This document shows positions 2,536 through 26,405 of a DNA stretch of 33,618 nucleotides, piece after piece. The stretch is from Candidatus Nomurabacteria bacterium. GTDB lineage: Bacteria > Patescibacteriota > Minisyncoccia > Phycocordibacterales > UBA9973. Position numbers and translations under genes: made by a program. The notes beneath the pieces were generated by a model that was given only the letters and a program-made list of their open reading frames with translations, had not been told where the DNA came from and made no database searches. Positions within the stretch are counted from its first letter, which is position 1. Every line of letters begins with the position of its first letter. The stretch spans positions 1 to 33,618 of the forward strand of contig CAIOXK010000008.1 of assembly GCA_903862255.1 (NCBI GenBank), read 5' to 3'.

Positions 2536-3981
2536 ATGGGAAAAGTTAAGGATTTTCTTTTTAAGAATTCATCGACAAAACAAACCATTGCTAAGAATAC
2601 TATCTGGCTTTTTTTGGGTGAAATAGTTGGTAGAGTATTCAAGTTGGGAATAATAGTATTTGCAACAAGACAACTCGGTGTCGAGGGTTGGGGCATTTTC
2701 TCATACGCACTCGCATTTGTGTCTTTGGCATATATTTTTGCAGATATAGGGATTAACACTTTTTTAACAAGAGAGCTCTCTAGTAATGACTCCGATAAAT
2801 ACAAATATCTGTCTGCGGCATTTTTCTTTAAGGTTTTACTCCTATTACTTTCATTGATCGCTTCAATACTAATCATTCCATATTTTGGCTCAGTACCCTT
2901 ACAAATACCTATCATTATTACAATTGCGGTGCTCAATTTTTCAGATTCACTTAGAGAGTTTTTCCTCTCAGCAAATCGTGCCCTTCAAAAAATGGAGCGC
3001 GAAGCATACATAAAAATAGTACTGAGTATAAGTGTAACTGTTTTGGGAACAATATTGCTTATTACGAATCCAACCCCCTTACTACTCTCAATAGCCTATG
3101 CAGTGGGCAGTATCATTGCAACGATCGTAACCATTGCTATGTTGCCAAAAGAATTTCGTTATATGAAATGGAGCTTCCCTTTGTCGTACCTAAAAACAAT
3201 TTTTAATTTTGCATGGCCCTTTATTGCACTAACCATATTTTCAACAGCACTAGTTACCATCGACAGCATAATGTTAGGACAAATGAAGTCAGCAACTGAA
3301 GTCGGTCTTTATTCAGCAGCCCAACGAATCATACAGTTCGCCGCAATCATTCCTATCTATATCGGCATTTCACTATTTCCGCTATTAACAAAAAACAAAC
3401 ATGATGAAGGGGTCCTTGCCGCGATCTTCGAAAAGACATTTGTGTTAGTCCTCGCAATAGGATTGCCACTTTCCATGCTATGTTTTTTGCTTAGTACTAG
3501 TATTATGACTACTCTTTTTGGTACAGCCTTTGCTTCCGGGGGACAGATACTGGCAATCTTAGCGATTGTCATTATTGCTGATTTTTCATACATACTCTTA
3601 AACAATATGGTTTATGTAAAAAACATTCAACGAAAATTTATTATCGCTTCTTTTGTCGGACTAATTCTTAATATTGTAATGAATATGTCTCTTATCCCGA
3701 CATATGGCGCTGTCGGCGCAGCAATTTCAACAACAGCTGCGCAAGTATTAATTATGGTCCTAAACTGGGTACAACTAAAAAGATTTTTCTCATTTAGCAT
3801 AGTGCCGAAACTTGGCATAATTACCATTGCAACAGTACTAATGGCAGTGGTTGTAATAATACTTGTCTTCCTACAGCTGCATTTTATTTTGATTGCATTT
3901 GTAGCAGTACTAGCTTATATTACAATTCTTTACCTACTAAAAGAACCTTCTTTATCAGAATTATTATTACTTTTTAGATAA
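2536..3981 (+). CDS. Wzx-type oligosaccharide flippase
   Basis: A 481-aa integral membrane protein with about 14 hydrophobic segments spread over its full length. The N-terminal part AKNTIWLFLGEIVGRVFKLG and ATRQLGVEGWGIFSYALAF is typical of polysaccharide transporters of the MATE/MurJ superfamily (Wzx/RfbX branch). The family moves undecaprenyl-pyrophosphate-linked repeat units across the inner membrane. Length is normal for Wzx. MurJ itself is less likely, because the protein sits between the initiating transferase and glycosyltransferases. It starts 1 base after the upstream stop and is followed by the GT2 gene after another single base, with no ribosome binding site, so translational coupling is likely. 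Confidence 0.92.
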   Translation: MGKVKDFLFKNSSTKQTIAKNTIWLFLGEIVGRVFKLGIIVFATRQLGVEGWGIFSYALAFVSLAYIFADIGINTFLTRELSSNDSDKYKYLSAAFFFKVLLLLLSLIASILIIPYFGSVPLQIPIIITIAVLNFSDSLREFFLSANRALQKMEREAYIKIVLSISVTVLGTILLITNPTPLLLSIAYAVGSIIATIVTIAMLPKEFRYMKWSFPLSYLKTIFNFAWPFIALTIFSTALVTIDSIMLGQMKSATEVGLYSAAQRIIQFAAIIPIYIGISLFPLLTKNKHDEGVLAAIFEKTFVLVLAIGLPLSMLCFLLSTSIMTTLFGTAFASGGQILAILAIVIIADFSYILLNNMVYVKNIQRKFIIASFVGLILNIVMNMSLIPTYGAVGAAISTTAAQVLIMVLNWVQLKRFFSFSIVPKLGIITIATVLMAVVVIILVFLQLHFILIAFVAVLAYITILYLLKEPSLSELLLLFR

Positions 3982-3982
3982 C

Positions 3983-4753
3983 ATGAAAACTATTAGCATC
4001 TGTATCCCAACACACGAAATGGGAGGACTAGGACATACATTCCTAAGAAAAAGTTTTGAAAAATTAAAAACACAAACATTCAAAGAATTTGATATTGTTG
4101 TTTCTGACCACTCTAAAAATGACGATATAAAAAAGCTCTGTGAAGAATATGCCGACAAGTTCGATGTGCATTATTTTCGGAATACTGAAGGTGTCGGATC
4201 GTCTTCAATAAACATAAACAATGCGATAAAACACGCTAGTGGTAAATTAATCAAAATATTATTCATGGATGATTTCCTTTTTAGCGATACCGCCCTCCAG
4301 GAAATCGTTGATAATTTTGATATGGAAAAAGATCATTGGATGATTACCGCGTGTGAACACTCAAACGACGGAGTGACATATTATCGCCCTTTTTACCCAA
4401 AATATAATAATAAGATTTTTCTAGGCAGAAACACTATTAGTTCTCCTTCTGTTATTACAATCAAGAACGACAACCCTCTTTTTTTTGATGAAAAACTAGT
4501 ATGGCTTATGGATGTAGAATATTACAAAAGATGCTACGATACCTTTGGTAAGCCTAAGATTCTTGATATTATTACTGTCGTAAACGGTACCGGGGACCAC
4601 CAAGGTATTGGAGGATATAAGAGCAGAAATAAAAAGTCTACAAACAAACTCAAATGGAGTGAATATCTCTATGTTTTAGGCAAATATGAAAAAGGGTTCA
4701 ATTATTACTATTACAAATTTACTGGTTTTATAAAAGCACTGATAAAAAATTAA
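3983..4753 (+). CDS. Family 2 glycosyltransferase
   Basis: A 256-aa soluble GT-A fold enzyme. The N-terminus MKTISICIPTHEMGGLG gives the first beta strand, FDIVVSDHS gives the nucleotide-binding strand, and ILFMDDFLF near residue 95 provides the DxD-like metal motif. No membrane helix is visible. The family transfers a sugar from a nucleotide donor to a growing lipid-linked oligosaccharide at the cytoplasmic membrane face. Donor and acceptor cannot be read from the sequence. The C-terminus is rich in Lys, Tyr and Asn. It lies in the plus-strand operon between the flippase and the epimerase. Confidence 0.85.
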   Translation: MKTISICIPTHEMGGLGHTFLRKSFEKLKTQTFKEFDIVVSDHSKNDDIKKLCEEYADKFDVHYFRNTEGVGSSSININNAIKHASGKLIKILFMDDFLFSDTALQEIVDNFDMEKDHWMITACEHSNDGVTYYRPFYPKYNNKIFLGRNTISSPSVITIKNDNPLFFDEKLVWLMDVEYYKRCYDTFGKPKILDIITVVNGTGDHQGIGGYKSRNKKSTNKLKWSEYLYVLGKYEKGFNYYYYKFTGFIKALIKN

Positions 4754-4758
4754 TTTAT

Positions 4759-5760
4759 ATGAAAAAGGTATTAGTTACTGGTATTGCAGGGTTGCTCGGA
4801 TCTCATTTCTCAACACATCTTCTCAATCAAGGGTATGAGGTTATTGGCATAGACAATCTATCTGGCGGATACGAAGACTATATCGACAAACGTATTATCG
4901 AGTCTGGAAATTTTTATAATTTTGACCTACTTCAAGCATCACAACTTGATGAGGTATTCAAAAAACATAACCCTGAATACGTATATCATTTTGCTGCATA
5001 TGCTGCCGAAGGTCTTTCTCCTTTTATTCGAAACTTTAACTACAACAATAACCTTATTAGTTCTATTAATATAATTAATAACTGTATTAATTATAATGTT
5101 AACAAAGTTATTTTTACTTCTTCGATGGCAGTATACGGTATTGGTACACCTCCTTTTACAGAAGATCAGTCCCCAAGCCCTGTTGACCCATACGGTATTG
5201 CAAAATACGCAGTTGAATTAGACCTTGAACAAGCATTTGATCAATTCGGCCTTAAATATAATATTATTCGTCCTCATAATGTGATCGGTACGAAGCAAAA
5301 TATCTGGGACAAATACCGCAACGTAATCGGTATATGGATCCGAGAATCTTTAGCAGGTAACCCTATCACTATATTTGGTGACGGTACTCAGAAGCGAGCA
5401 TTCTCCGATATTCAATTTTATATGAAGCCATTTGAATTATTGATGACTACAAACGACTGCGAAATATTCAATATCGGTGCTGACCACGAATATGAGCTTA
5501 ATGATATTGCAACCCTTGTTCAAAAGATTGCAAATGAGTTTGGATATAATCCTGAAATTAAACACCTAGAACCTCGACATGAAGTAAAAGATGCCTATTG
5601 TAATCACGATAAAGCAAAGAACGCTCTTGGGTTTGAAGACAAGACAAATATCGAATCTACAATACGTGACATGTTTGAATGGGCAGTGAAGCAACCTGTT
5701 CGAGAGACAAAGAAAATGGAATATGAAGTAGAAAAAAACATCTACTCTTTCTGGAAATAA
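4759..5760 (+). CDS. NAD-dependent nucleotide-sugar epimerase/dehydratase
   Basis: A 333-aa extended short-chain dehydrogenase. The Rossmann motif VTGIAGLLGSH gives GxxGxxG at residues 8-14. The catalytic set is Ser in TSSMAVYG (about 122) with Tyr145-x-x-x-Lys149 in YGIAK. NIIRPHNVIG and GDGTQKRAFSDI are substrate-region signatures of the UDP-glucose 4-epimerase/GDP-sugar epimerase group. It probably supplies an epimerised or dehydrated nucleotide sugar to the surrounding transferases. Exact specificity (galactose, uronate or GDP-deoxysugar) cannot be decided. Because a GT11 enzyme and a GT11-like domain are encoded nearby, a role in a GDP-fucose-like branch is possible but unproven. A five-base gap follows the upstream gene. 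Confidence 0.88.
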   Translation: MKKVLVTGIAGLLGSHFSTHLLNQGYEVIGIDNLSGGYEDYIDKRIIESGNFYNFDLLQASQLDEVFKKHNPEYVYHFAAYAAEGLSPFIRNFNYNNNLISSINIINNCINYNVNKVIFTSSMAVYGIGTPPFTEDQSPSPVDPYGIAKYAVELDLEQAFDQFGLKYNIIRPHNVIGTKQNIWDKYRNVIGIWIRESLAGNPITIFGDGTQKRAFSDIQFYMKPFELLMTTNDCEIFNIGADHEYELNDIATLVQKIANEFGYNPEIKHLEPRHEVKDAYCNHDKAKNALGFEDKTNIESTIRDMFEWAVKQPVRETKKMEYEVEKNIYSFWK

Positions 5761-5764
5761 CCAT

Positions 5765-8380
5765 ATGATAGCGACAGAACTCTACAAAGGACAAGGACTC
5801 GGTAACCAGCTCGCCTGCTATGTGGCAACTCGAGTAATTGCACTTGATAGAGGGTTTGAATTTGGCATACACCACCCTGAACGATTTAAGGGGGCTGATT
5901 TTATGATGCTTGATTTTGGAAAGACAGTAACAGGAGGGGGTAATGATATTAAATATTACTATACTGAGAGAAAAACACTTCACCCTATTACCGGTGATGA
6001 TATTCGCCTTTATGATAAAGACCTCGTTACTGTTTTAGATGGCACAAAAATTGATGGACTGATGCAGGATGAACAGTATATTGATCATCGTAAAAACGAA
6101 ATTAGAGCATGGTTAACAGTTGATCCAGCATTTGACTGTTACGACTATTCTGATGAAAATACTTGTGTCATTAATTTTCGAGGTGGAGAATATACTCGCC
6201 ATAACAACTTCTTTCTAACAAAAAAGTACTGGGATGATGCCGTCCGCTATATGATATCAATAAATAAGAATTTTCGTTTTATTGTTATTTCTGACGACCC
6301 GATTACAGCTAAAAAATTCTTTCCACATTATGATGTATTCCATTTTAGTATTGGCAAAGACTATTCGATAATCAAAAATGCTCATTATCTTATATTATCT
6401 AATTCAAGCTTTGCCTGGTTTCCTGCCTGGTTAAATGAAAATCTAAAATTCTGCATTGCTCCAAAGTATTGGGCTCGTCATAATATTTCTGATGGATACT
6501 GGAGCCTAGGATATAACATCACCAGGGGTTGGAATTATATGGACCGCGAGGGAGTATTGTATGACTATGATACTTGTCTTAAAGAATTACAAGCATACAT
6601 AGAAAATCATCCTGACTATTTCCCTACTCCAAAAATTAACAAAAACTTTTTAGTTATATCTAACTATAATAACGATCTGCGGTGGGTACCCGAGTACACT
6701 GATAATTATGTGATTTATAACCATTCAAGCGATAAGTTGGCAATTCCGGATTCTATCGAACCAGCAAAAGTACTGCCGGCACCAAACGTTGGCTACAACA
6801 CATATAATTATTTCACCTTTATTATTGATAATTATGAAAACCTGCCCGACGTAACTATTTTTGCAAAAGGGTGGAGCTTCCCTAGACATGTGCGCCGAGA
6901 GCATTTCGAAAGAGTAATGAATAATGAATGCTTCACACCAATTGAAGACTGGAAGATGCATACACCACGATTCCCAATCGCGTTGTTTTCTGCAAATGGC
7001 GGATATTGTGAATACAATAATAGCTGGTATTTGAAGCACTGGAAAACAAAATATTTTAAAAACTATAACGACTTTATTCGCTATATATACACAGACCCTG
7101 TTATTCCGCTTTATGTTCGATTTGCGCCAGGTGGAGACTATATTGTACCAAGAGCTAATATTCTTAAAATACCAAAACAGGTATATGAAAATATGCGTTT
7201 ATTTATGTCACATTGCCAAGAGCCTGGCGAAACTCATTTAATTGAACGTGCCGTCCACACGCTATGGACCAGTAATTTTGAGATAAATCCTCAGGCATTA
7301 AAACCAGTGGGTGAATATTTTTCAATCCCTAAGAAAACTTTTAAGGAGAAGCTTAAGGCCAGTACCCCAGTAAAAATAAAAAATATTGCTAAGGCAATCA
7401 TCAATAGTACTAAGAATGTCATAACCTATATCAATCAACCAATCGATGCTATTAAAGAGCGTTCGAGAAAAAAACGGTGGCTTTCGGCTAATGAAATTTC
7501 TACATATCGAAAATCTATTAAAATATATGATGCATTTAATTTTTTTAATGAATTAGAAACGTTAGATATCCGACTCAATATTCTTAATGAATATGTTGAT
7601 TATTTTGTCATCGTTGAGTCAACACTCACCCATTCTGGCCAGCCGAAAGAATTATTTTATGAGAAGAATAAACATTTATTTAAAAAGTGTGAAGATAAAA
7701 TACTGCACTATATTATTGATCGGCCGCTAAAAAACTTTGACGACGCCCGAGAGCGCCTGCAAGACCCTGCAATTTCTACTATTGATAAAACTATCTTAAC
7801 CGCAACTCTCACATCCGATAATGTTGGACCAGGTGAAGAAAACTTCTTGCGAGACTTTTATGAAAAAGAGTATATTAAAAAAGTTTTACTGTCCCTAAAT
7901 CTTAGCGATAATGATTTTTGCTATATCTCTGATCTTGATGAAATATGGAACCCTGAAGTAGTAATTGATTATTCAAAAGACGATATCTACAAATACAAAC
8001 AGGATCCTTATATTTATTATCTCAATAATCGCTCAAATGAAGACTGGAGTGGCTGGACAGGAACAATTGCTACTAAATTTAAGAATATAAAAAATAACTG
8101 CCTTAACCATCTTCGCACTAGAACAAAAACAACATATACAGTAATTAAAAATGGTGGTTGGCATTTCAGTTTCCAGGGCGGAACAAATCGCATAAAAACA
8201 AAAATTGAATCATACAGCCATCAAGAGATTAACAATGATGATATTAAGTCTCAGATTGAAGATAGGCTGTCAAAAAATAAAGACGTACGCGGACGGCTAA
8301 TGAAATTTTGGAAAGATGAAAGTACACTTCCTCGATATTTAACTGAGAACAAAGGTAAGTACCCTGGCTTTTTTCGATAA
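5765..8380 (+). CDS. Three-domain glycosyltransferase: GT11-like + DUF3431-like + GT17-like
   Basis: An 871-aa protein with no membrane helix and apparently three catalytic-type modules. Residues 1-280 resemble alpha-1,2-fucosyltransferases (GT11), with KGQGLGNQ at 8-15, NFRGGEY at 137-143 in place of HxRRGDY, and LSNSSFAWFPAWL at 211-223. Residues about 294-505 resemble DUF3431 proteins: VISNYNNDLRWVPEY, NVGYNTYNYFTFIIDNYENL, and FAPGGDYIVPRANIL. A basic linker at 520-575 leads to residues 586-860, which match GT17 enzymes: IYDAFNFFNELETLDIRL, VESTLTHSGQPKEL and the acidic SDLDEI motif. It is the last gene of the plus operon. Its TAA directly abuts the TAA of the opposing GT2 gene. The domains could act in sequence on one acceptor; that is inference. 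Confidence 0.82.
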   Translation: MIATELYKGQGLGNQLACYVATRVIALDRGFEFGIHHPERFKGADFMMLDFGKTVTGGGNDIKYYYTERKTLHPITGDDIRLYDKDLVTVLDGTKIDGLMQDEQYIDHRKNEIRAWLTVDPAFDCYDYSDENTCVINFRGGEYTRHNNFFLTKKYWDDAVRYMISINKNFRFIVISDDPITAKKFFPHYDVFHFSIGKDYSIIKNAHYLILSNSSFAWFPAWLNENLKFCIAPKYWARHNISDGYWSLGYNITRGWNYMDREGVLYDYDTCLKELQAYIENHPDYFPTPKINKNFLVISNYNNDLRWVPEYTDNYVIYNHSSDKLAIPDSIEPAKVLPAPNVGYNTYNYFTFIIDNYENLPDVTIFAKGWSFPRHVRREHFERVMNNECFTPIEDWKMHTPRFPIALFSANGGYCEYNNSWYLKHWKTKYFKNYNDFIRYIYTDPVIPLYVRFAPGGDYIVPRANILKIPKQVYENMRLFMSHCQEPGETHLIERAVHTLWTSNFEINPQALKPVGEYFSIPKKTFKEKLKASTPVKIKNIAKAIINSTKNVITYINQPIDAIKERSRKKRWLSANEISTYRKSIKIYDAFNFFNELETLDIRLNILNEYVDYFVIVESTLTHSGQPKELFYEKNKHLFKKCEDKILHYIIDRPLKNFDDARERLQDPAISTIDKTILTATLTSDNVGPGEENFLRDFYEKEYIKKVLLSLNLSDNDFCYISDLDEIWNPEVVIDYSKDDIYKYKQDPYIYYLNNRSNEDWSGWTGTIATKFKNIKNNCLNHLRTRTKTTYTVIKNGGWHFSFQGGTNRIKTKIESYSHQEINNDDIKSQIEDRLSKNKDVRGRLMKFWKDESTLPRYLTENKGKYPGFFR

Positions 8381-9214
8381 TTATAGACGCTTATATATTC
8401 GCTGTATAAAGTAAAATAGTTTTTTCGGTATCGGCACTGTCGACATACATACAAAACCTATATAGCGAGCGAGTGCGACTACATACCCTAATAAAAAGTT
8501 AGGGTATGTAGCTTTATAGCAACTAATTAAAAATAGTATATGTTTTGCTTGCTGTACTCTATTTTTTGAAGTAAGGCTATTGCTGTGTACTACTAATGAG
8601 GTTGAGACTACGTCTATATTAACAAACTGCCCGACTGTTCCGAGTCGTAGCCATAGTTCATAATCTTCTATATGCAATACAGTAGGACTTTCTTTGTATC
8701 CACCGACAGTGTGGATAGTGGTCTTACGCATCATAACCGTAGAGTGCAAAAAACAGTTTTTTGACAAAATTTTTGAGCGAATTTCTTTGTCGGTTTTAGG
8801 CATAATACTTGTAAAGATTTTTTTACCGGATTCATTAATAATTAATGCATCAGTGCCGACCAATACACAATTAGGATGACTGTCTAAATATGAAACCTGC
8901 AGAGCGAGTTTATCTTTATAGACCCATTGGTCATCATCATCGAGTCTAGTCACATATTCCCCTTTTGCAAAAAGAATCCCCTTGTTAAGAGTTTTTTGAA
9001 TACCTATATTATGTTCGTTTTCTAAAAAAATAATTCTTTCATCATTTTTTGAATACTCCTGAACAATTGATTTTGTTTGGTCTATTGACCCGTCAGAAAG
9101 TATGATTAATTCCCATGCTTGAAATGTTTGATTTAATACACTGTCTATAGCGGTACGAATGAATTGAGCTCCATTGTACGTAGGTAATATAATACTTACT
9201 CTATATTTTTCCAT
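8381..9214 (-). CDS. Family 2 glycosyltransferase
   Basis: A 277-aa protein starting MEKYRVSIILPTYNG. An upstream in-frame ATG at 9250 would add 12 residues and lengthen the overlap with the preceding gene, so 9214 is preferred. The classic GT-A signatures are YRVSIILPTYNGAQFI, WELIILSDGSIDQT, NIGIQKTLNKGI and the metal-binding TRLDDDDQW near residue 90. HIEDYELWLRLG near 175 carries the acidic catalytic-base region. It resembles SpsA-like and rhamnosyl/galactosyl transferases, but the donor is unknown. The C-terminal 45 residues contain a hydrophobic segment that may associate with the membrane. It overlaps the upstream Wzy-like gene by 19 bases, indicating coupling. Confidence 0.88.
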   Translation of the reverse strand: MEKYRVSIILPTYNGAQFIRTAIDSVLNQTFQAWELIILSDGSIDQTKSIVQEYSKNDERIIFLENEHNIGIQKTLNKGILFAKGEYVTRLDDDDQWVYKDKLALQVSYLDSHPNCVLVGTDALIINESGKKIFTSIMPKTDKEIRSKILSKNCFLHSTVMMRKTTIHTVGGYKESPTVLHIEDYELWLRLGTVGQFVNIDVVSTSLVVHSNSLTSKNRVQQAKHILFLISCYKATYPNFLLGYVVALARYIGFVCMSTVPIPKKLFYFIQRIYKRL

Positions 9215-10524
9215 GGCAATAAAGATAACGCTAGCACAGCCCAGAAACAATATAATGATAAACTATCGTCAAACATGATTGCTATAGTTAAACTAAACAG
9301 TGTTACTAATAACGATACAAGCATTGGATTGAAGTTGCTTTTTAGTTTATTGCCTAGGTTTAAAAAGGCATTAAAAAGTAAATATACAAAACTTAATAAA
9401 GATATGCCTCCGCCCCAAAGTAATAATTCTAGAAAAGTATTGTGCGGCCCAGTACTAACGTGGTTACCGTCTATATCAATTACGTTTGACTCAATATGAG
9501 TATTTGGACCAATACCTAGTGGATTTTTTATGATTATATTTTTTATATAAAAAGGCCAAATTTGTAACCTTGTTTCTTTCTCGTCACTGTTTAATACTAT
9601 GCCCTTAGTGTTAGGCTGAACAGCAGTATTGTGGAATGAATGAAATATAATACTCAAAAGCCCCATAGACCGTACCTGTTCTTGGGAAAACTGATGGGTA
9701 TCAGAATTAAGTACTCTGTTTAACATAACCTGTTTTCTAGAATATGGGGTAAAAATAAACCCAACAGTGAGAATTACCATGAGTGTTCCTATATACAAAA
9801 AAGTTTTTTTCCATGTGAAATTATGCGAAGCAACAACCAAAAAAGCAAAAAACATACCTGAGAACAAACTGAGGATTGCCCCGCGAGATGATATCCATAA
9901 CAACAAAGACACGAGCAAGGAGGCTATACATATATACACAATCCTCATCTTTACATTTTTTGTTAGGATTATTGCGTGGACTATAAAATACATTGCAGGT
10001 ATTAACAGCATCTTGGAAATGAGATTTACGTTCGTAGTGAGTCCTACAAAATTACCATCAGATGCAAGAAGAAAAGAAGGGGTACTGTGAGGAAATAAAA
10101 CAAATATAATAAAGATGACTGGTACGAGTAATGCGTAATAATATTTCTTACTAATGCCAGAATCGTTATATCCATAAAATAACACAAACAAGAATGTTAT
10201 GAGACCAATGATACATGTTCCAAACTCTAGCAACATGTTCAAATTTGTAGGAATATGATTTATATATACAGAAATTCCCCAACCAAGTAGTACTGAGCCT
10301 ACTAATAAACACACTGCCACGAGTATGTTTTTTGGGATTACCGTAATGCTTGTCTTAATGTTAGTAACAAACAATACATAAACTATTGTTAGCAATGAAA
10401 GTACTACAAATAGTAGTTCGTATGGTTTTGGTAAAAATGAGTAGGCGAAATTTCCTACTCGATACGATAATAGGGCTAGGCCGATAAGTAATATATTTTT
10501 ATTAGTCTTTTCAAGAAATTTCAT
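9196..10524 (-). CDS. Wzy/WaaL-like O-antigen polymerase or ligase
   Basis: A 442-aa polytopic protein with about 12 hydrophobic helices. A large extracytoplasmic loop at about 260-370 contains the Wzy_C-type signature NPLGIGPNTH and, further on, GPHNTFLELLLWGGG. These proteins either polymerise undecaprenyl-linked repeat units or transfer the finished glycan to an acceptor, on the outer face of the membrane. Start MKFLEKTNK lies 2 bases after the stop of the fucosyltransferase gene; a GTG six codons upstream would overlap it. It is the second member of this superfamily in the locus, so one may be the polymerase and the other a ligase. Sequence alone does not say which. Confidence 0.85.
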   Translation of the reverse strand: MKFLEKTNKNILLIGLALLSYRVGNFAYSFLPKPYELLFVVLSLLTIVYVLFVTNIKTSITVIPKNILVAVCLLVGSVLLGWGISVYINHIPTNLNMLLEFGTCIIGLITFLFVLFYGYNDSGISKKYYYALLVPVIFIIFVLFPHSTPSFLLASDGNFVGLTTNVNLISKMLLIPAMYFIVHAIILTKNVKMRIVYICIASLLVSLLLWISSRGAILSLFSGMFFAFLVVASHNFTWKKTFLYIGTLMVILTVGFIFTPYSRKQVMLNRVLNSDTHQFSQEQVRSMGLLSIIFHSFHNTAVQPNTKGIVLNSDEKETRLQIWPFYIKNIIIKNPLGIGPNTHIESNVIDIDGNHVSTGPHNTFLELLLWGGGISLLSFVYLLFNAFLNLGNKLKSNFNPMLVSLLVTLFSLTIAIMFDDSLSLYCFWAVLALSLLPWKNIE

Positions 10525-10526
10525 AC

Positions 10527-11420
10527 TTACATTCTCACCCACTCCTCAGGAATAAGATCATGCGTATCTATTGTATCATCTGCAAACCATTTTTTAGGAG
10601 CAATTACAATTTTATTTTCATTAGCGGCTAGCCACGCTGCCCACCAAGAAAAAGTACTGTTTGGTATAACAAAATATTTACATGCAGACATGAGGGCAAA
10701 ATGTTCGCAATCCCTATCTCCAGCATATTCATTGCCCACAAAAATAGTTGGGTATGCAAAGGTTAAATTAGCCCTACACCACTCAATATCATCAGAAAAT
10801 ACGTATATTTTTTCTATTGTTGTATGATTAGAAATATAAGAAATCCCCTTATCATAGTATGTCTGGCCTATAGCGGTATCATGAACCTTATTACCAACAT
10901 AGTCCCCTCGCCTGATATGTACACATACAGCATTACAAGAGACAATTTCATTGTGCAGTGATTGTGATTTTTCTGAAAGCGGTTCTTTTAAGGTGAAATC
11001 TTTCTGTAGAACATCTTTAATATCTGAAAAATATTTCGGTGTTTGCCAGTTACCATCTAAATAAGTATTTGGTCCTTTTAGTAATATAGCAGGATCATAC
11101 TGTTGATCTCTTTTGCCAAATGATGGATGTAATATTCTTCTGCGTACACCATCAATTATTGGGCGCACTTTGCCTGCCCCATAATTGCGTAAATACCACG
11201 GTACCTCTTTTTGATTAGCAATCTGCACTGAAATGTTAAAAACATCTAGACTATAAGGCCTGAAAATTAATGACTTGAGATTAAAGCCATGTTCATGCAA
11301 ATACATTTGCATATCAATATCAAGCTTTAATGGAACATTATATTTCAATGCCAATGCACGCCCCAGCGCATACTGAAACATTTGATTCCCCATACCCCCT
11401 GATAGTCTAACTATAATCAT
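10527..11420 (-). CDS. GT11 alpha-1,2-fucosyltransferase-like enzyme
   Basis: A 297-aa single-domain enzyme of normal family length. All hallmark motifs are intact: MIIVRLSGGMGNQMFQYALG at the N-terminus, HIRRGDY at about 168-174 for GDP-fucose binding, FSDDIEWC, and PNSTFSWWAAWLA near 255. GT11 enzymes transfer fucose from GDP-fucose in alpha-1,2 linkage to galactose-type acceptors; some relatives use other sugars. There is a 1-base gap after the Wzy-TPR gene and a 2-base gap before the next Wzy-like gene. Unlike the degenerate GT11-like domain of the 871-aa protein, this copy keeps HxRRGDY, so the two may have different acceptors or activity. No GDP-fucose synthesis genes are recognised here. 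Confidence 0.93.
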   Translation of the reverse strand: MIIVRLSGGMGNQMFQYALGRALALKYNVPLKLDIDMQMYLHEHGFNLKSLIFRPYSLDVFNISVQIANQKEVPWYLRNYGAGKVRPIIDGVRRRILHPSFGKRDQQYDPAILLKGPNTYLDGNWQTPKYFSDIKDVLQKDFTLKEPLSEKSQSLHNEIVSCNAVCVHIRRGDYVGNKVHDTAIGQTYYDKGISYISNHTTIEKIYVFSDDIEWCRANLTFAYPTIFVGNEYAGDRDCEHFALMSACKYFVIPNSTFSWWAAWLAANENKIVIAPKKWFADDTIDTHDLIPEEWVRM

Positions 11421-11421
11421 A

Positions 11422-13410
11422 TTATTTTAATTGCTTCCTAAAATTAACAGCAGGTAAATAATTAGCATTAATCTGTATTGCCTTATCCAAAAGTGCTTTT
11501 GCTTCTGCAATTTTATTTTCATACACTAAGGTTTGAGCATACGATACATAAATATCTGGATCAGTTACGGAAAGGCTGAATGCCTGCATGGCATAGCGAT
11601 CAGCATTCGCTAACTCTGTAACATTCCCTGTTAGATAGTATTCCAGGTTTTCTAACTGTACCATCGTTAGTGCCAAATGATAGTCATATGGATTGTGTTG
11701 CAAAATTGGGTCAACTGCTTTTATTAAGGCTGATAATTCTGCTGATGCCACTCTTTGATATAACGGATCTATTTTCAATTGTTCTTTTTGTGCATCATAT
11801 GCAAAAAAAAGTGAATCTGTAAAAAACTCTACATCGGTTGATATCGCATATGACCCAGGCGAATGAAAAGCATGTTCATACATTGATGCACGCTGGTCAC
11901 TTGCCGTCATAGACAATACATAAATCTCTTCCATCTTTCTCGCAGGCAAATATGATGCGTATATCCACAAAGGAATCATTCCGATACTAATAATAGTAGC
12001 CATACTATATAGCCATGAGGATACGTATGGATATACCTGTTTATAGTCATTATTTACATCATACAAACCAGCGATAATAGCAAAAAGCGAGAAGAATATA
12101 GTAAAGCTGGTTATTGAATCGTAGATCATTTGCTGTTGAAGGATGAAAGCAATATACAGGCCGATCATTAGCGCAAATGATTGTTTGTCTAATATATTTC
12201 GACAGTACAACCTGTATGTTCCCCAAAAAAGTACACCAAGTAATACTAAGTAAAAAAATCCAGCGACACATCCCCCATTAACGAGTATTTCTAATGTGCT
12301 GTTATGCGGATGCAGTGCCCACCCTTCATTACCATGACCAGGATTAAATACAATTGGATTAAAATATTTCTGGTGTACGACATGGTAATTTTCTGCCCCC
12401 CATCCAAGCAATGGCCGCTCTTTAATACCTTTTAATGCTTCTTGCCAGTCAGTAATTCGATTACCTGATTGTTCTACAAAAAAAGCACGTGCATTCGTTT
12501 GAGGAGAAATAATTTGCTGAAATCCCATTATTCCAACTATTACTATTAGACCTAGACCGATACCTCCTATTACTTTTATGGTTTTTTTACTGGCAAGGGC
12601 AAAGTATACAAACAGACTAATTAACAAGCCGACAATAAGAGATACTGTGGCAATGCGTGCCTCACCTATAAATAAATATCCTGAAGATAGTGCCTTGCCC
12701 TTGAATAGTGCTACATTAAAATAGATAGGACAAAAAGCAATAAGTGCTAATCCTGCCATATATACGATCTTCTTCCAGAGCAATATTTCTTTTTTTATTA
12801 ATTGAAATGTGAAGAAGAAACAGAAAATACCATATGCACCTACTAATAATGAATTTCCCATCATTGCACCACCAGAAGATTTATTAAGCATTTCTGAATT
12901 AATATCAAACAGACCATTTGGCCCAGTAAAAAAAGTCGCGATAGCCAAAACTATAGATGCAAAAAAGGTTGCTTGAAATATTCTTCTTACTAACTCTTTT
13001 TGCTGAACTCGAATCAATGAAGTAATAATGCATACGAGTAGAACTATATGATAAAACACCACGAGCCCTGTACCAGTTTCGACAGTTGAAAAAAAAGATG
13101 TAGCGGGATCAACGCCGTTATAGGCACTGATCGTCAATGACAATGTATATAAAAATAGCGGTAAGAGTAATAGTAGATTCTTTTTTGTTAGTCGATACCT
13201 TTTGTCGATGACCAATAGCCATATCCATAGAACTGTAAGCAGTTCAACAATGCCGATTAAAAAATACTGTTTTGATGTAACATATGAAGCGATGCGCCCT
13301 GGGAAATACAGTAGCGGCAATACGGCAAATATAGCGAACACCCCCCATTTCAGTGCACTTTCTAAAAATGATAAGGGTCGAGTACTTTTGCTTTTTATTT
13401 TTGTTCGCAT
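11422..13410 (-). CDS. O-antigen ligase/polymerase-family membrane protein with C-terminal TPR
   Basis: A 662-aa protein with about 12-13 membrane helices over residues 15-480. A Wzy_C-type loop runs from about 315 with GNRITDWQEALKGIKERPLLGWG and LHPHNSTLEILVNGG, followed by further helices and a soluble C-terminal part. The last about 60 residues contain TPR-like repeats (AMQAFSLSVTDPDIYVSYAQ, AEAKALLDKAIQINANYLPA). This Wzy-plus-TPR form is longer than the other Wzy-like protein of the locus. The TPR tail may bind an acceptor or partner protein. A -10-like TATAGT lies 6 bases before the ATG, and the serine hydrolase gene ends 19 bases upstream. Confidence 0.88.
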   Translation of the reverse strand: MRTKIKSKSTRPLSFLESALKWGVFAIFAVLPLLYFPGRIASYVTSKQYFLIGIVELLTVLWIWLLVIDKRYRLTKKNLLLLLPLFLYTLSLTISAYNGVDPATSFFSTVETGTGLVVFYHIVLLVCIITSLIRVQQKELVRRIFQATFFASIVLAIATFFTGPNGLFDINSEMLNKSSGGAMMGNSLLVGAYGIFCFFFTFQLIKKEILLWKKIVYMAGLALIAFCPIYFNVALFKGKALSSGYLFIGEARIATVSLIVGLLISLFVYFALASKKTIKVIGGIGLGLIVIVGIMGFQQIISPQTNARAFFVEQSGNRITDWQEALKGIKERPLLGWGAENYHVVHQKYFNPIVFNPGHGNEGWALHPHNSTLEILVNGGCVAGFFYLVLLGVLFWGTYRLYCRNILDKQSFALMIGLYIAFILQQQMIYDSITSFTIFFSLFAIIAGLYDVNNDYKQVYPYVSSWLYSMATIISIGMIPLWIYASYLPARKMEEIYVLSMTASDQRASMYEHAFHSPGSYAISTDVEFFTDSLFFAYDAQKEQLKIDPLYQRVASAELSALIKAVDPILQHNPYDYHLALTMVQLENLEYYLTGNVTELANADRYAMQAFSLSVTDPDIYVSYAQTLVYENKIAEAKALLDKAIQINANYLPAVNFRKQLK

Positions 13411-13429: not shown

Positions 13430-14431
13430 TTATTTATTATCTTTGACAGATTGCCAAGTAATTCCAGAGATATCAGCTATTACTTTTTCTAAATCAGGAA
13501 AAGCTGTTCCTTTTGTCATTACACACAATAGATACGGATTATTTGGTGCATAGATAATGCCGCAATCATGCAGTTCTCTTACAGAAGTTGCCCCTGTACC
13601 TATACTGCGTTCTCCAAACTTATGTGACACAATAGTCCCTGAAGGAACACCTGCAACTAACCCTTTAGTAAATGTTGTCTTGCTAAGCAATTCCAGCGAC
13701 TGATTTGATACTGTATTCGAAATATATCCACCATTATAGAGCGCACGGAATGCGCGAGAGTACATCTTTGGAGAAATAAAATCCGTTGGCGTGTTTTGAC
13801 TTAATGATGGAATTTTTAAATCGGTAAATACTTTTTCTAATGCAGGAGCACCGATTAAAGCATTAATAGCATTTGCCGCATTATTATCTGAATATATAAT
13901 CATATGAGAAAGAAGCTCATTGGCAGAATACTCTTCACCAGGAGTCACAGGGTCTGCTGGAGGATAAAAATCTTGATTTGTATCGGTATTTACCATGTGT
14001 GGAGCTATCCTTACCTGGGTGAGATACAGCGATGGATTGTTTTGTGCATTGTGCAAGAATGCTATCAATGACAATACTTTGAGCATACTTGCAGGGGCGT
14101 ACAGATCATCCTGATTTACCCCTAACCACTGATCAGTATTTAGCTTACGAAAATACACTGAGGCATCGGTCACCTTTTTTTCTTGCTCTGCAGTGTCTAT
14201 ATATTTTGTAATTATTTTTTTAAGCACCTGAGATTGCGGTGCTGTGTCTTCGTTACTTTGCAAAAATAAAATAGGGCTAATAAATTTATAATCCGTAGGA
14301 TTTTCTCTAATCGGTACTACAGGTTTTATTTCATACTGTTTTCGAACTAACCATCCTAGTACTGCGCCGATACTGACCGATACTACTATACTGGAAATCG
14401 TGGCAGCTTTTATTTTCTTACCCATCTTCAT
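13430..14431 (-). CDS. Class A beta-lactamase/penicillin-binding-protein-like serine hydrolase
   Basis: A 333-aa protein anchored by one N-terminal helix (about residues 9-28), so the catalytic domain should be extracytoplasmic. Active-site motifs from the MKMGKK start are SxxK in PASMLKV (Ser115, Lys118), YSDN at about 180-183, and KFG at about 271-273 where KTG is usual. No clear Glu166 deacylation motif is seen, so beta-lactam hydrolysis is not assured. A peptidoglycan carboxypeptidase or esterase role is equally possible. Start 14431 is chosen because TATAAT lies 9 bases upstream and an alternative start at 14467 would fall in the preceding terminator. It lies just upstream of the minus-strand glycan operon and may be co-transcribed with it. 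Confidence 0.85.
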   Translation of the reverse strand: MKMGKKIKAATISSIVVSVSIGAVLGWLVRKQYEIKPVVPIRENPTDYKFISPILFLQSNEDTAPQSQVLKKIITKYIDTAEQEKKVTDASVYFRKLNTDQWLGVNQDDLYAPASMLKVLSLIAFLHNAQNNPSLYLTQVRIAPHMVNTDTNQDFYPPADPVTPGEEYSANELLSHMIIYSDNNAANAINALIGAPALEKVFTDLKIPSLSQNTPTDFISPKMYSRAFRALYNGGYISNTVSNQSLELLSKTTFTKGLVAGVPSGTIVSHKFGERSIGTGATSVRELHDCGIIYAPNNPYLLCVMTKGTAFPDLEKVIADISGITWQSVKDNK

Positions 14432-14440
14432 TAGAAGTTG

Positions 14441-14446
14441 ATTATA
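14441..14446 (-). promoter_or_regulatory. -10 element TATAAT of the serine hydrolase gene
   Basis: On the minus strand GGTATAAT is followed by 9 bases and ATGAAGATGGG. It sits between a strong terminator and the gene, which supports a true independent promoter for the minus-strand glycan operon with a leader of only about two bases. Confidence 0.55.
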
Positions 14447-14465
14447 CCTGGAAAATGCAGAAAAC

Positions 14466-14491
14466 AAAAAACCTCCCGAAGGAGGTTTTTT
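14466..14491 (-). terminator. Strong rho-independent terminator of the 700-aa surface protein gene
   Basis: On the minus strand ACCTCC-TTCG-GGAGGT forms a stem closed by a stable C(UUCG)G tetraloop, flanked by six A upstream and six T downstream. The stem reads almost equally well on both strands. It ends the surface protein transcript before the serine hydrolase promoter. Confidence 0.9.
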
Positions 14492-14534: not shown

Positions 14535-16637
14535 TTATTGACCAGCTACGTATGCAGTACGGAATTGGTTTGTTGTCAAACCAGCAGTGTAAGTTGAGTA
14601 TGAAGAACCACTTGTTAGAGTGTTGTTCACATTAACCAACTGACCGCGGTATGAACCTCCAGTTGTAGGAGAGTAAGTAACAACTAGGTTAAATGTCTTT
14701 GTCTGACCAACTGGAACTTGGTAGTTACCATTGCCGTCCTGACTAAGACTGTCGTTTCCAACATAACTGATAGTTGCACTTGCACCTGTCTGAAGAGCAG
14801 AACCGTTATCAACAGCGTACTGGATGTAGTTTCCAGCAGTAGCTGTTGGGTTGTTCACAGTTCCAGCACTTACTAGACTAGTAGCTGAAGGAACGTATGA
14901 AGTCTGACCGTATGAAGTTACAGAGAAAGGAATAGTCATTGTGAAGATTCCGTGTGACTGTGAACCACCTGGGTTAGAGTAAGTATTTGTTGTTGCACTT
15001 GCAGCAGCAACGTTAACACCGTTTACGTAGAAGTAGTTCTTTGAACCAGTTGTAGAACCAACTAGGTATGTAGAACCAGTGATACGGTTGTTGTTAACAT
15101 CGTATGCCTGGATAGCCAATACGTTATTCTGTGTCAATTCAGCAACTGCGTAAGTACCAGCGTTGAATGTTGTGCCGTTAACAGTATTGATGTCTCCCTT
15201 GATTGTGTACACGTTAGTTGTTCCTGTAGGAACAGCTAGAGTGTTGTTGTTGAAGTTAGTAAATGTAACTGTTGCACAAAGTGAACCAGATACAGAGTAC
15301 AAACTTGAACCAGTTACACCAGAACATACAGCTCCAGCAGGAACTGTTTCTGAGTCAATCAAAGTACCAGCTGAGTTGTAAAGACGTAGAGTACTTACAA
15401 CATCACTAACTGAAGTACCAGTAGCACCAGAAGCTTTTACGATACCAACAGTAACAGGAATACTCTGGATATTGATGTTTGTTCCTTGTGAGTTCAAATC
15501 AATAGTAGCAAGAGTAAGACCCTGTGTGTTTGATGAAGCAGAAGCCTGGATTGTGTGATCAGTAGAGTCATTTACATCCTTAGTAACGTTTAGCTTGATG
15601 TTTGAAGATGAAGCTGAAGTGTTAAATACGAATGTAGCGTTTGACAATGTTGAGTCAGACACTGAGTACTGGAAAGCTGAACCAGTTGAGTCACTGTAAC
15701 GGATAGAAGTACCAGTAATAATGAAAGTATTATTAGAACTTGTAAGGTTAGCAGTATCGATAACTGGAAGAGCTGATACAGCAATGTACAAATCACTTGT
15801 AGTGTTTGGACTTAGCATTGCACCACTCAAAGGAATGTATGCAGAGTAAGCATTGTTGTATGAAGTGAATGAAGTAGCAGGAAGTGAACCAACCTGTACA
15901 CCGTTCAACCATACAGACACGTTTGAAGCGTATTTGATGAACTGATAGTCACCAGCAGAAACATTGTTCTTGAAAGTAACATTCAAACCAGTTAGGTTAC
16001 CTGTACCACCTGCACCAGTAACGATGCGGAGGTCAGCAACCTGCTTGTTAGATGAACCAACACCAACGTTTGTAGCTGTGTAGCCTGAGCCAGCAGTTAC
16101 AGTGTTGATAGAAAGAGGACCACCTACAACAGCTGTTGAAGTTGAAGAACAAGGCTGACCTGTTGTTGAAGAGAATCCAACTGAAGATACACAACCTGCA
16201 GGGAATACTGTTGTTGCTGGAGTACCAGAACAAGGAGCACCGTTTACAGTTGAGTAACCTGTAGTTGAAGCACAACCAGCAGGAAGACCTGTGTTAACTG
16301 AAGTTGAAGTTGAAGTTACAGCAGCAAGCTTAGCGCCTGTCATTGCACCAACAGCACCATCAGCTGTTAAGCCGTTAGCTGATTGGAAACACTTTACAGC
16401 TGCCTTTGTAGCAGGACCGAAAGTAGTTGTTTCCATACCCATTGAACCAGCACCTGAAGCAGCTACTTTACATGAAGTCATGTTAAGAGTCTGTTGAAGA
16501 GCTAGAACCTGAGAACCTTTTGAACCCTGTTTAAGAAGTCCTGTGTGCATGTAAGCAGCAGAAGCTGTTGAAGCGATCGCAAAAGCGAAAGCAAGAGCAG
16601 CTACTGAACCTACAACAAATTTTGAAATTTTGTTCAT
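14535..16637 (-). CDS. Secreted peptidoglycan-binding Ser/Thr-rich surface protein
   Basis: A 700-aa protein with a clear Sec signal peptide (positive MNKISK, hydrophobic core, cleavage after ASTASA near residue 27). A peptidoglycan-binding type 1 domain follows at about 33-110 (LLKQGSKGSQVLALQQTLN, TFGPATKAAVKCFQ). Next come two copies of a cysteine loop, PAGCASTTGYSTVNGAPC and PAGCVSSVGFSSTTGQPC, at about 118-165. The remaining about 530 residues are Ser/Thr/Asn/Gly-rich beta repeats without Lys/Arg clusters. Codon use is very uniform (repeated GTACCAG/GAACCA strings on the plus strand), as in a highly expressed gene. It is probably a major cell-surface or S-layer-like protein held to the wall by its N-terminal domain. 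It is monocistronic, with a strong terminator downstream and a long structured region upstream. It is a plausible glycan acceptor. Confidence 0.85.
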   Translation of the reverse strand: MNKISKFVVGSVAALAFAFAIASTASAAYMHTGLLKQGSKGSQVLALQQTLNMTSCKVAASGAGSMGMETTTFGPATKAAVKCFQSANGLTADGAVGAMTGAKLAAVTSTSTSVNTGLPAGCASTTGYSTVNGAPCSGTPATTVFPAGCVSSVGFSSTTGQPCSSTSTAVVGGPLSINTVTAGSGYTATNVGVGSSNKQVADLRIVTGAGGTGNLTGLNVTFKNNVSAGDYQFIKYASNVSVWLNGVQVGSLPATSFTSYNNAYSAYIPLSGAMLSPNTTSDLYIAVSALPVIDTANLTSSNNTFIITGTSIRYSDSTGSAFQYSVSDSTLSNATFVFNTSASSSNIKLNVTKDVNDSTDHTIQASASSNTQGLTLATIDLNSQGTNINIQSIPVTVGIVKASGATGTSVSDVVSTLRLYNSAGTLIDSETVPAGAVCSGVTGSSLYSVSGSLCATVTFTNFNNNTLAVPTGTTNVYTIKGDINTVNGTTFNAGTYAVAELTQNNVLAIQAYDVNNNRITGSTYLVGSTTGSKNYFYVNGVNVAAASATTNTYSNPGGSQSHGIFTMTIPFSVTSYGQTSYVPSATSLVSAGTVNNPTATAGNYIQYAVDNGSALQTGASATISYVGNDSLSQDGNGNYQVPVGQTKTFNLVVTYSPTTGGSYRGQLVNVNNTLTSGSSYSTYTAGLTTNQFRTAYVAGQ

Positions 16638-23240: not shown

Positions 23241-26200
23241 CTAAGAGTGCGCAGTAATATATTTTCTAGTCGCAGTATTAAGTGAACCTGATGCTGGTTT
23301 AATACCATTAGATACCTGGAATCGAGCCAGGGCTTTTTTGGTTGCTGATCCAAAATAGTTTGTTTCATTTCCGAGTGAACCTGTCCCTATTAGAGAAACT
23401 GGGAAACCGTGTGTATTGAGGTAGTGCTGCAACAGACTTACTTGAATACTTTTTGCCCCCATAGAAAGATTGGTAGTAATTTTATTAATCAACACTTTTG
23501 TATCAACAGAAGGTGTTTTGTTGATTGTAGTACACAGAGCGCCTGTTGAGGTATTAAATAAGTCTCCTGGCATACATTGTGTTGTCGGAGTATTTTTTAC
23601 AGAAGCACCTCCGCCACTTATACTAGAACTAGTATACGTAATTATAGCTATAGGGGTTACCGATTCTGACGAAGCCGAAGCAGTACCTGTACCCGCATTA
23701 TTTGTTGCAGTAACAGTAAAGGTATAGCTGGTGCCATTTGTTAAACCAGTAACAATGATTGGCGAACTACTTCCGTTGGCAATAATATTGCCTGGAGTAG
23801 AAGTAGCAGTATAAGAAGTTATAGCGCTTCCACCATTCGATCCCGGAGATGTAAATGACACAGTTGCTTGACCACTAGCAGCTACAGCTGTAACTGCAGT
23901 AGGTGCACCAGGAACGGTTGCCGCAGTCGTAAACATTTGATCAGGTGAAGTAACACTGTTTCCTGATATATCTATACTTCTGATCTGATAATGATAGATA
24001 GTATTTGCATTCAAACTACCTATTGCTACAGAATGAGAAGTAACACGATTAGTGTCTAATGTTGTAGAGCTACCGTACGAATCAGTAGTACCGTAAAATA
24101 TTTGTGAATTACTACTCTTATCTGTAGTCCAAGTGATAGTTGCACTATGTTGACCAGGAGTACCAGAAGATATTGCTGATAGTATAGGAGCGGTAGTGTC
24201 GGCTGTAACTGTTACTGTGGTAGTAGCACCGCCAGTAGGATCAGTTATTGTAAGTGTGCCCGGAGTAGACCCAGCATTAATAGTGAGAGTGGCATGGGTA
24301 GTATCAACAATAGTTTGAGCGCTTATTGAAGCACCTGTTCCACCCGACAATATAAATGTTGGTGTGCCAGGAGTGCCTGCTGTCCATGCAGTATTAACAC
24401 CTACTAAAGAGATAGTACCACTAGTGTTTTGAGTGATAGATGTAGGGCTTGCAGAGATCGAAGACAAGTCACTGTTTATAGCAGCATAGAGAGCATTAGC
24501 AATAACAACGTGACCTGCAGCATCAGGATGTACACCATCAGCGGCTGTATAGCTGATTGAACCCAAGTCAATGAGATGGACGTTATGATCAGATGGATGC
24601 GCTACGGTATATGCAGTATATCCAGCTGTAATATTTACACGATCAGCCCCAGCAAAAGGAACAACAATAAAAATTTGTGTTGCTGACCCCGCTTCAATAC
24701 GAGCCTGCTCCATGCGAGTTTCAATAGAAGCAGAGACGTCACTTAGTCCGTCATTCTGACCGTGAACAATGAGCCAATAATCCGGAGGGTTTGGTAATAC
24801 ACCGTCCGTAAGGCGAGAAGCACCATTATAGTAATAATCAGCAGCATTTACATAGCTTGGTATATTGGCCTGACCAGCATGTATCCACCCTTGTGAACCA
24901 TACCCTATCTGTGTTACTTCAGAGTTCAACAAAGATGCCAGCAAGTGTGGAAAGGCGAGTACTGCGCTGTTGCCTGATGGTTTATCTGTGATGTCTATTA
25001 CTCTCAACCCTTCAGTAATTGAATCTCCATCGACTCTCAGCAATTTTGGTAATACTGTTGGTGTTGAAATATTTGCACCGTTATCTATCATGATACCAGT
25101 TACCTTTACTGCAGCTACAGGCGTATTCCAAATATCCGTGTTATCGTAAGTGGAGACATAGACAAACCGTAACGTATGAGCACCTGATGAAAGATGTTCA
25201 ATATTTATTGCATTTGTTGTAGGGGTAAGCTGTACATTTGTTAGTGATCCCCCATCAATCTGATATGCAACAATAGGATAGTTTACAGTCGTAACGGCAG
25301 CAGAAACTAATGCAGAAACATCAATATTTATAATTGCAGATGTTCCAGAAAAATTTGTTTTCAAATAACTTCCAGGATTTATCATTAATGCATATGATGA
25401 ACCATTAACATACACGTTATCCCTACTCCAATATAAGCTAGGATTATTAACAGAAATAACGACAGGACTGACAGCATAGTGTATAGCTACAGGGTCAGCA
25501 AGATTGGTTGAATTGGCTGTAGTGATAAGGTATGGCGAAGCGACTACACTACTTGAGGTATAGGTAAATGTTTTTGAAGAACTATCACCACTCCAAGTCA
25601 AACTGCTTGGAGAAAAAGTTCCCGGCCCTGTACTTGCGGGAGTAATAGTGCCCGTATATGGACCATTAGGAGTGATTGTAAAATTTGACGATGCACTATT
25701 TACAGGACCACTGGTCGGACCATCGAGCGTGTATGTTGTGGCATTAGTATTATCAGTTGCTGAAAAATCATCGAGATGCAACCCGTTTGAATCAGGCGCT
25801 CCACCCATAGTAAGGATACCAGCCGATCCAACAGTAGAAATTTGAGTATCCGCTGCTGATACGGTTAATACTCCATCAACATATCCTGAAATAAAGTTCC
25901 CTCTCATTGATAATTTCAACACATGTGACGTACCTGAAGATCCAAACGGTTCTGTGAATGATGCCATGAGAAACCCTCCGCCATTGACGAATCTATACAA
26001 CTGATACTGAGAAGTAGGATTATCATAACCGAACCAATACATCGTTACAGCAGTACTAGACATTCTTCCTGCAACACCAGTAGAATCACTATAGGGTTGC
26101 ACACTAGTAACTGTTGCCTGTACATCATAATCAGCAGTGGCAGGAGTACCTGAAGCATAATAAAGATTTAATCCACCAGTACCTCTGGCACGATTGGCAC

Positions 26201-26405
26201 TATCAATCACTATCGAACCGATCGAAGCAAATGAAGGGTGCTCAGTCCATGTAGCTCCGGTCTCTCCTGTATGATTCTCAAGCAATGTACTTGTAGTATC
26301 AGTAAAGGTATCATTAACAAACGGTGCAGCATATACACTCTTACAAAAAACTGTAAGAGTAATAATCAAGGCGACAGAGGCAAGTACTATTTTTCTTTTA
26401 ATCAT
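23241..26405 (-). CDS. Secreted SGNH hydrolase with Fn3 and peptidoglycan-binding domains
   Basis: A 1054-aa exported protein. The signal peptide is MIKRKIVLASVALIITLTVF, with cleavage near VYAA. A laminin-G/concanavalin-like beta domain spans about 30-215 and Ig-like regions about 215-450. The SGNH/GDSL hydrolase domain runs about 455-650, with block I VDGDSITEG near 459, block III HGQNDG near 549 and the His/Asp block ADGVHPDAAGH near 624. A further Ig-like region and two fibronectin type III domains follow (about 735-925; TITWTTDKSSNSQIFYG, PGAPTAVTAVAASGQATVSF). A cysteine loop QCMPGDLFNTSTGALC leads to a C-terminal peptidoglycan-binding domain (about 975-1054). It probably de-esterifies a cell-surface or environmental carbohydrate while bound to the wall. 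Substrate is unknown. Its -10 is extended (26438-26446). Confidence 0.88.
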   Translation of the reverse strand: MIKRKIVLASVALIITLTVFCKSVYAAPFVNDTFTDTTSTLLENHTGETGATWTEHPSFASIGSIVIDSANRARGTGGLNLYYASGTPATADYDVQATVTSVQPYSDSTGVAGRMSSTAVTMYWFGYDNPTSQYQLYRFVNGGGFLMASFTEPFGSSGTSHVLKLSMRGNFISGYVDGVLTVSAADTQISTVGSAGILTMGGAPDSNGLHLDDFSATDNTNATTYTLDGPTSGPVNSASSNFTITPNGPYTGTITPASTGPGTFSPSSLTWSGDSSSKTFTYTSSSVVASPYLITTANSTNLADPVAIHYAVSPVVISVNNPSLYWSRDNVYVNGSSYALMINPGSYLKTNFSGTSAIINIDVSALVSAAVTTVNYPIVAYQIDGGSLTNVQLTPTTNAINIEHLSSGAHTLRFVYVSTYDNTDIWNTPVAAVKVTGIMIDNGANISTPTVLPKLLRVDGDSITEGLRVIDITDKPSGNSAVLAFPHLLASLLNSEVTQIGYGSQGWIHAGQANIPSYVNAADYYYNGASRLTDGVLPNPPDYWLIVHGQNDGLSDVSASIETRMEQARIEAGSATQIFIVVPFAGADRVNITAGYTAYTVAHPSDHNVHLIDLGSISYTAADGVHPDAAGHVVIANALYAAINSDLSSISASPTSITQNTSGTISLVGVNTAWTAGTPGTPTFILSGGTGASISAQTIVDTTHATLTINAGSTPGTLTITDPTGGATTTVTVTADTTAPILSAISSGTPGQHSATITWTTDKSSNSQIFYGTTDSYGSSTTLDTNRVTSHSVAIGSLNANTIYHYQIRSIDISGNSVTSPDQMFTTAATVPGAPTAVTAVAASGQATVSFTSPGSNGGSAITSYTATSTPGNIIANGSSSPIIVTGLTNGTSYTFTVTATNNAGTGTASASSESVTPIAIITYTSSSISGGGASVKNTPTTQCMPGDLFNTSTGALCTTINKTPSVDTKVLINKITTNLSMGAKSIQVSLLQHYLNTHGFPVSLIGTGSLGNETNYFGSATKKALARFQVSNGIKPASGSLNTATRKYITAHS

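Follow-up and report, generated by a model that had tools for sequence, protein, structure and literature searches.

The fusion gene and its polysaccharide locus

The DNA analysed here (33,618 nt, hereafter the window) forms contig 8 of a genome of 670 kb that is 89% complete. The host, a very small and probably symbiotic bacterium, has Candidatus Nomurabacteria MAGs as its closest named relatives and hence belongs to the CPR. An operon on the forward strand starts with an initiating sugar-phosphate transferase (Bac_transf; positions 1257-2534, PF02397, 207.7 bits) and continues with a Wzx-type flippase (2536-3981, PF01943, 115.4 bits), a GT2 glycosyltransferase (3983-4753, PF00535, 58 bits) and an NAD-dependent sugar epimerase/dehydratase (4759-5760, PF01370, 159.8 bits). 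The latter reached no NCBIfam equivalog cut-off, the best model being GalE with 142.9 of 262.3. Four nucleotides downstream follows the last gene of the operon, which encodes a fusion protein of 871 amino acids (5765-8380). Its stop codon is abutted by the GT2 gene of a converging operon on the reverse strand (8381-9250, PF00535, 110.6 bits); this operon also contains a Wzy/O-antigen ligase-like polymerase (9196-10542, PF04932, 43.7 bits) and an ordinary GT11 enzyme (10527-11420, PF01531, 110.8 bits), homologues of which occur in 15 of the bacterial loci. PF02397, PF01943 and PF04932 all scored above cut-off, which identifies the region as a Wzx/Wzy-dependent polysaccharide locus. Promoter and terminator scans gave matches at chance level only.

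Other reverse-strand products of the window were characterised by reading their sequences. The gene at 11422-13410, which adjoins the first Wzy-like gene, encodes a second multi-pass protein that resembles an O-antigen ligase/polymerase and ends in a TPR-like tail. Also near the polysaccharide genes is a secreted serine beta-lactamase-like protein (13430-14467) with SMLK and SDN motifs. Large secreted-looking surface proteins are encoded at 14535-16637, 23241-26405 and 31598-33616. Two of them show peptidoglycan-binding-like repeats, and the other has a head repeat and S74-peptidase-like ends; these three proteins are possible carriers of the glycan.

The fusion is a single uninterrupted open reading frame on the forward strand, from the ATG at 5765 to the stop codon at 8378-8380. 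The first-pass annotation had described three glycosyltransferase-type modules in this frame, a layout that we confirmed, although we redrew the module limits from residues 1-280, 294-505 and 586-860 to 1-290 (N), 291-520 (M) and 575-871 (C), with roughly 50 residues of basic, helical linker ahead of the last. NCBIfam and PDB sequence searches returned no match for the 871-aa protein. PHROGs matched N alone (phrog_2644, glycosyltransferase) and gave no match for M or C. The same N-M-C reading frame is present in four further genomes: G032/UBA5155 (838 aa, truncated N-terminally where the contig stops) and G004 (921 aa) from the GTDB family of the host, and G375 (858 aa) and G331 (895 aa) from outside it. 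The fusion therefore recurs in five CPR genomes of three GTDB families, and an assembly or frameshift artefact is ruled out. That many phages encode the same three enzymes as separate adjacent genes likewise argues that the fusion is real. Between the window and G032, synonymous sites are saturated (pS 0.76-0.79) and nonsynonymous differences amount to 0.18, 0.24 and 0.19 in N, M and C, respectively, indicating purifying selection on all three modules.

Folds and conserved residues of the three modules

In the HMM searches that had been proposed for the three segments, M and C exceeded their Pfam cut-offs and N fell below, but relatives of N passed. Module N (5765-6634) scored 10.9 bits against PF01531 (Glyco_transf_11) over residues 154-258, under the cut-off of 23.9; the scores of its relatives were 34.4 (L027), 33.3 (L040), 27.9 (L038), 40.9 (L051) and 46.0 bits (huge-phage locus L062). 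The predicted structure of N has a GT-B fucosyltransferase-type fold and aligned best with NodZ (Z 12.4, rmsd 3.5, 218 residues), followed by POFUT1/2, plant FUT1 (AtFUT1) and FUT8, all of them GDP-fucose transferases; the best 35 VIA-align rows were fucosyltransferases throughout. Because relatives pass the cut-off and the fold matches GDP-fucose transferases, we regard N as GT11-related. Its donor is probably a GDP-6-deoxyhexose such as GDP-fucose.

At motif I, N reads NFRGGEY (residues 137-143, positions 6173-6193), in contrast to HIRRGDY in the intact enzyme at 10527-11420, as the first-pass annotation had pointed out. N thus lacks the HxRRxD(Y) motif of GT11 and keeps the first arginine alone. 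In an alignment of 59 N sequences, 40 columns are conserved at 90% or more and Arg139 is invariant. Of the 19 bacterial copies 16 read NFRGGEY, as do 11 of the 40 phage copies, the remainder being mostly close variants such as HIRGGDF, and a tree separates the N clade from the ordinary GT11 enzymes of the same loci with 100/100 support. The invariant arginine and the conservation of the motif in a deep clade mark NFRGGEY as a clade signature and not as damage, and this conservation argues strongly against a decayed domain. With GT11, GT23, GT65 and GT68, the HxRRxD fucosyltransferase superfamily, N shares the predicted fold, a GxGNQ N-terminal motif, the motif-I arginine and an NSSFAWFPAW-type motif III; it differs from them by NFRGGEY, its separate clade and its fusion to two other transferase modules.

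Module M (6635-7324) matched PF11913 with 44.7 bits over residues 297-506 (cut-off 25) and hence belongs to DUF3431. W307, G343, Y357, E494 and R495 are invariant; Glu494-Arg495 (7244-7249), identical in all 33 bacterial and phage M sequences, are candidate functional residues. The full-length model, for which 58 sequences from the window and the retrieved loci were aligned, had a pTM of 0.47, with N and C at a pLDDT of about 95 and M poorly modelled. Since the full-length alignment had misaligned single-domain phage M proteins, we modelled M alone (26 sequences) and obtained a complete GT-A-like domain (pLDDT 94.2, pTM 0.91). GT-A and nucleotidyltransferase folds filled the top VIA-align rows over nearly the whole domain. 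The best match was mannosylglycerate synthase (rmsd 4.4, 177 residues), at a Z of 8.2, a level where structural matches may reflect merely a common arrangement; the WrtF fucosyltransferase followed with Z 8.0. Foldseek ranked chondroitin synthase CHSY3-CHPF first (E 2.3e-3). Given these modest scores, M is a putative GT-A glycosyltransferase. Residues 291-520 contain no DxD motif; some GT-A enzymes lack DxD. In the mainly non-subscription literature searched, we found no description of a function for DUF3431 or DUF5672, and the fusion offers a route to one for DUF3431.

The segment between M and C (residues 525-574, positions 7337-7486) is a predicted basic amphipathic linker. Over residues 538-556 its hydrophobic moment is 0.55, compared with a mean of 0.24 for the protein, and its net charge is +3; the model places a helix at 536-570 with low confidence. 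The high moment and positive charge fit contact with the membrane, the site of lipid-linked acceptors, and the linker is probably a peripheral membrane contact.

Module C (7487-8377) is a member of GT17 according to PF04724 (Glyco_transf_17; 80.3 bits, cut-off 26). Its predicted fold matched GT-A and nucleotidyltransferase folds with Z about 10. The sequence SDLDE (residues 722-726, positions 7928-7942) supplies the DxDE motif, the predicted metal- and donor-binding site, and D723, D725 and E726 are invariant in 48 of 48 C sequences. GT17 is the family of the beta-1,4-GlcNAc transferase that bisects N-glycans. C passes the Pfam model of this family and keeps its DxDE, but differs in being bacterial or phage-borne, soluble or peripheral, and the C-terminal module of a fusion.

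Module arrangements in CPR genomes and phages

N is present in 17 of 147 genomes of the host's GTDB family, in varied arrangements. G124 and G011 encode N-M with a separate C, which in G011 follows a methyltransferase domain on one chain. N-C without an intervening M is found in G038, G012, G041, G114 and G066, the last two retaining M as a separate gene of the locus. M-C stands behind a DUF5672-N gene in G091 and G076, and N, M and C are on different reading frames in G077, G081 and G003. We further saw methyltransferase-C, M-methyltransferase and GT2-DUF5672 fusions. These architectures are intermixed in the N tree (G032, with N-M-C, is sister to G038, with N-C; 100/99), so that fusion, fission or loss of M happened more than once. 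Homologues of the GT2 enzyme at 3983-4753 were detected in 6 of 60 bacterial relatives, solely in genomes that also carry N. Among 380 genomes drawn evenly across the phylum, the host's was the only one to match DUF3431, and a class-wide profile search was positive in 4 of 383 genomes; the gene set is thus patchy in CPR bacteria.

Phages carry the same modules unfused. LR756502, a 642-kb uncultured phage, has consecutive genes for GT2, DUF5672, M, N and C, and the isolated cyanophages S-B05 and RN05-S have C and N side by side. A scan of IMG/VR viral contigs with the N alignment yielded 75 loci, 74 of them with a full N. C accompanies N in 71 of these 74 (within 20 nt or overlapping in 57) and M in 45, and N is fused to C or M in none. 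With near-duplicates removed, C was present in 36 and M in 18 of 38 loci. By comparison, 80 control viral loci with an ordinary GT11 gene contained C once, at a locus where N adjoins it, and M never. Homologues of the GT2 enzyme, found in 62 of 77 viral loci with up to 60% identity, occurred in 60/75 viral N loci and 8/80 controls, and DUF5672 in 34/75 and 5/80, respectively. Gene order varies among phages. The N-M-C order with overlapping gene ends in L111 and L122 is plausibly the arrangement that preceded fusion. Phage markers (PhoH-like) lie close to the gene set in L069 and L118.

With the exception of G040, the bacterial N sequences fall into a single clade (95/95) amid those of phages. 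Bacteria and phages are more mixed in the C tree, and the M of one phage clusters with bacterial M at weak support. A plasmid collection held homologues of C only, and none of N or M.

A proposed role in surface-glycan assembly

We consider it reasonably probable that the fusion is a membrane-associated trifunctional enzyme which transfers three sugars to a single lipid-linked repeat unit of a Wzx/Wzy-type pathway. N, M and C would each transfer one sugar to the same undecaprenyl-linked unit at the inner face of the membrane, where the basic amphipathic linker ahead of C would hold the protein. It probably formed when adjacent genes of an older cassette (GT2, N, M and C, often with DUF5672), which is unfused in phages, were joined. 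That the modules travel together, and that the operon also encodes an initiating transferase, a flippase and a glycosyltransferase with Wzy-like genes nearby, argues for consecutive sugars, probably those of a cell-surface coat. The first-pass annotation had suggested an assembly line of this kind. The idea gains from modules that keep company in phages and CPR bacteria, fused or not, from the conservation of family-typical residues and from the polysaccharide operon; its sequential catalysis is kept here as a proposal. Loss of M from the N-C relatives G038, G012 and G041 implies that the three steps are not obligatory, and the glycan of these genomes is predicted to be one sugar shorter.

Alternatively, N and C might be the only catalytic modules, with M an acceptor-binding or structural insert between them. 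The missing DxD and the best structural Z of only 8.2 would fit, as would the three genomes just named, where N and C stay fused without M. However, M is a standalone gene in phages and some CPR loci, possesses invariant residues of its own and forms a complete GT-A-like domain in the model, and we regard a non-catalytic M as unlikely. Improbable to a similar degree is that the modules are active without acting consecutively, at different positions or branches, or on an acceptor that is a protein or lipid, for instance a surface glycoprotein, the fusion serving to equalise their amounts. Free gene order in phages is compatible with this, and so are the swapping of fusion partners (methyltransferase, GT47-like, DUF5672) and the large surface-type proteins encoded in the window; against it, the operon encodes the initiation, flipping and polymerisation steps of a lipid-linked pathway. 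There is very little to commend a degenerate GT11 that has lost sugar transfer: the sub-threshold score of N and the change from HxRRxD to NFRGGEY point that way, but Arg139 is invariant in 59 sequences, the motif is kept in a deep clade, the module is under purifying selection and its predicted fold is intact.

Besides the free gene order in phages, the supply of donors counts against the trifunctional reading. GDP-mannose 4,6-dehydratase was detected in 8 of the 17 genomes that carry the cassette, and on the cassette contig in 7. It was not found in the host genome (89% complete) at the thresholds used. Neither this enzyme nor NTP_transferase (PF00483) was detected at these thresholds in the host (G000) or in G032, G038 and G041 of the same genus, even though the cassette lies within polysaccharide loci there; the four possibly depend on outside sugar nucleotides, or these incomplete MAGs have gaps. 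The absence of NTP_transferase, if real, would mean that sugar nucleotides or their precursors come from elsewhere. The first-pass annotation had alternatively proposed that the first domain may have changed its donor. On this question, NFRGGEY marks an old clade that keeps Arg139, and in viral contigs GDP-mannose dehydratase, a possible sign of the donor, was not enriched near N (18/75 loci) relative to ordinary GT11 genes (24/80).

Fused multi-domain glycosyltransferases are already known. Chondroitin polymerase K4CP and heparosan synthase PmHS2 contain two GT-A domains that alternate two sugars processively. The fusion resembles them in having several transferase domains on one glycan-building chain, but consists of three unrelated modules and lies in a Wzx/Wzy-type locus. 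The earlier statement that this architecture is not a described one agrees with our survey of the mainly non-subscription literature, which produced no paper on the fusion and no description of the conserved GT2/N/M/C set. With one module of undescribed function and many natural rearrangements, the fusion lends itself as a natural experiment on which of the modules cooperate and in which sequence.

Phage clusters with several glycosyltransferase genes, including alpha-1,2-fucosyltransferase, are known in jumbo phages and cyanophages, where they are linked to capsule or LPS (PMC7824862, PMC9602691). They have the clustering of several such genes in common with the cassette, but the parts of these papers considered here do not mention a conserved set of GT2, GT11-like, DUF3431 and GT17 genes, its sharing with CPR bacteria, or a fusion. 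Phages (among them the uncultured one of 642 kb and isolated cyanophages) and CPR bacteria have one transferase set in common, an indication that programmes for surface glycans travel between the two. This is relevant to how CPR bacteria are coated and how phages affect the host surface. We tentatively propose, as a possibility that we rate below even, that phages and CPR bacteria exchange a portable glycan-assembly set (GT2, DUF5672, GT11-like N, DUF3431 and GT17), which the latter repeatedly weld into multi-domain enzymes, both building the same oligosaccharide, and that DUF3431, and possibly DUF5672 as well, represent glycosyltransferase families not described so far. For DUF5672, a role as a further transferase of this set is probable.

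Individual loci showed further variants. In the CPR loci L055 (9886-11292), L027 (3430-4842) and L038 (12031-13455), a single gene joins the cassette's GT2 to DUF5672. Other fusion partners of DUF5672 are N, in L032-L035, and a methyltransferase, in L051. In G124, the N-M and C reading frames (L025, 8579-10285 and 10272-11321) overlap by 14 nt in different frames inside the helical linker, possibly a recent split or a fusion made by frameshifting. Among phage loci, L069 has two copies of M (8767-10085), L135 two copies of C (3206-4950) and L076 a C-M fusion (870-2255).
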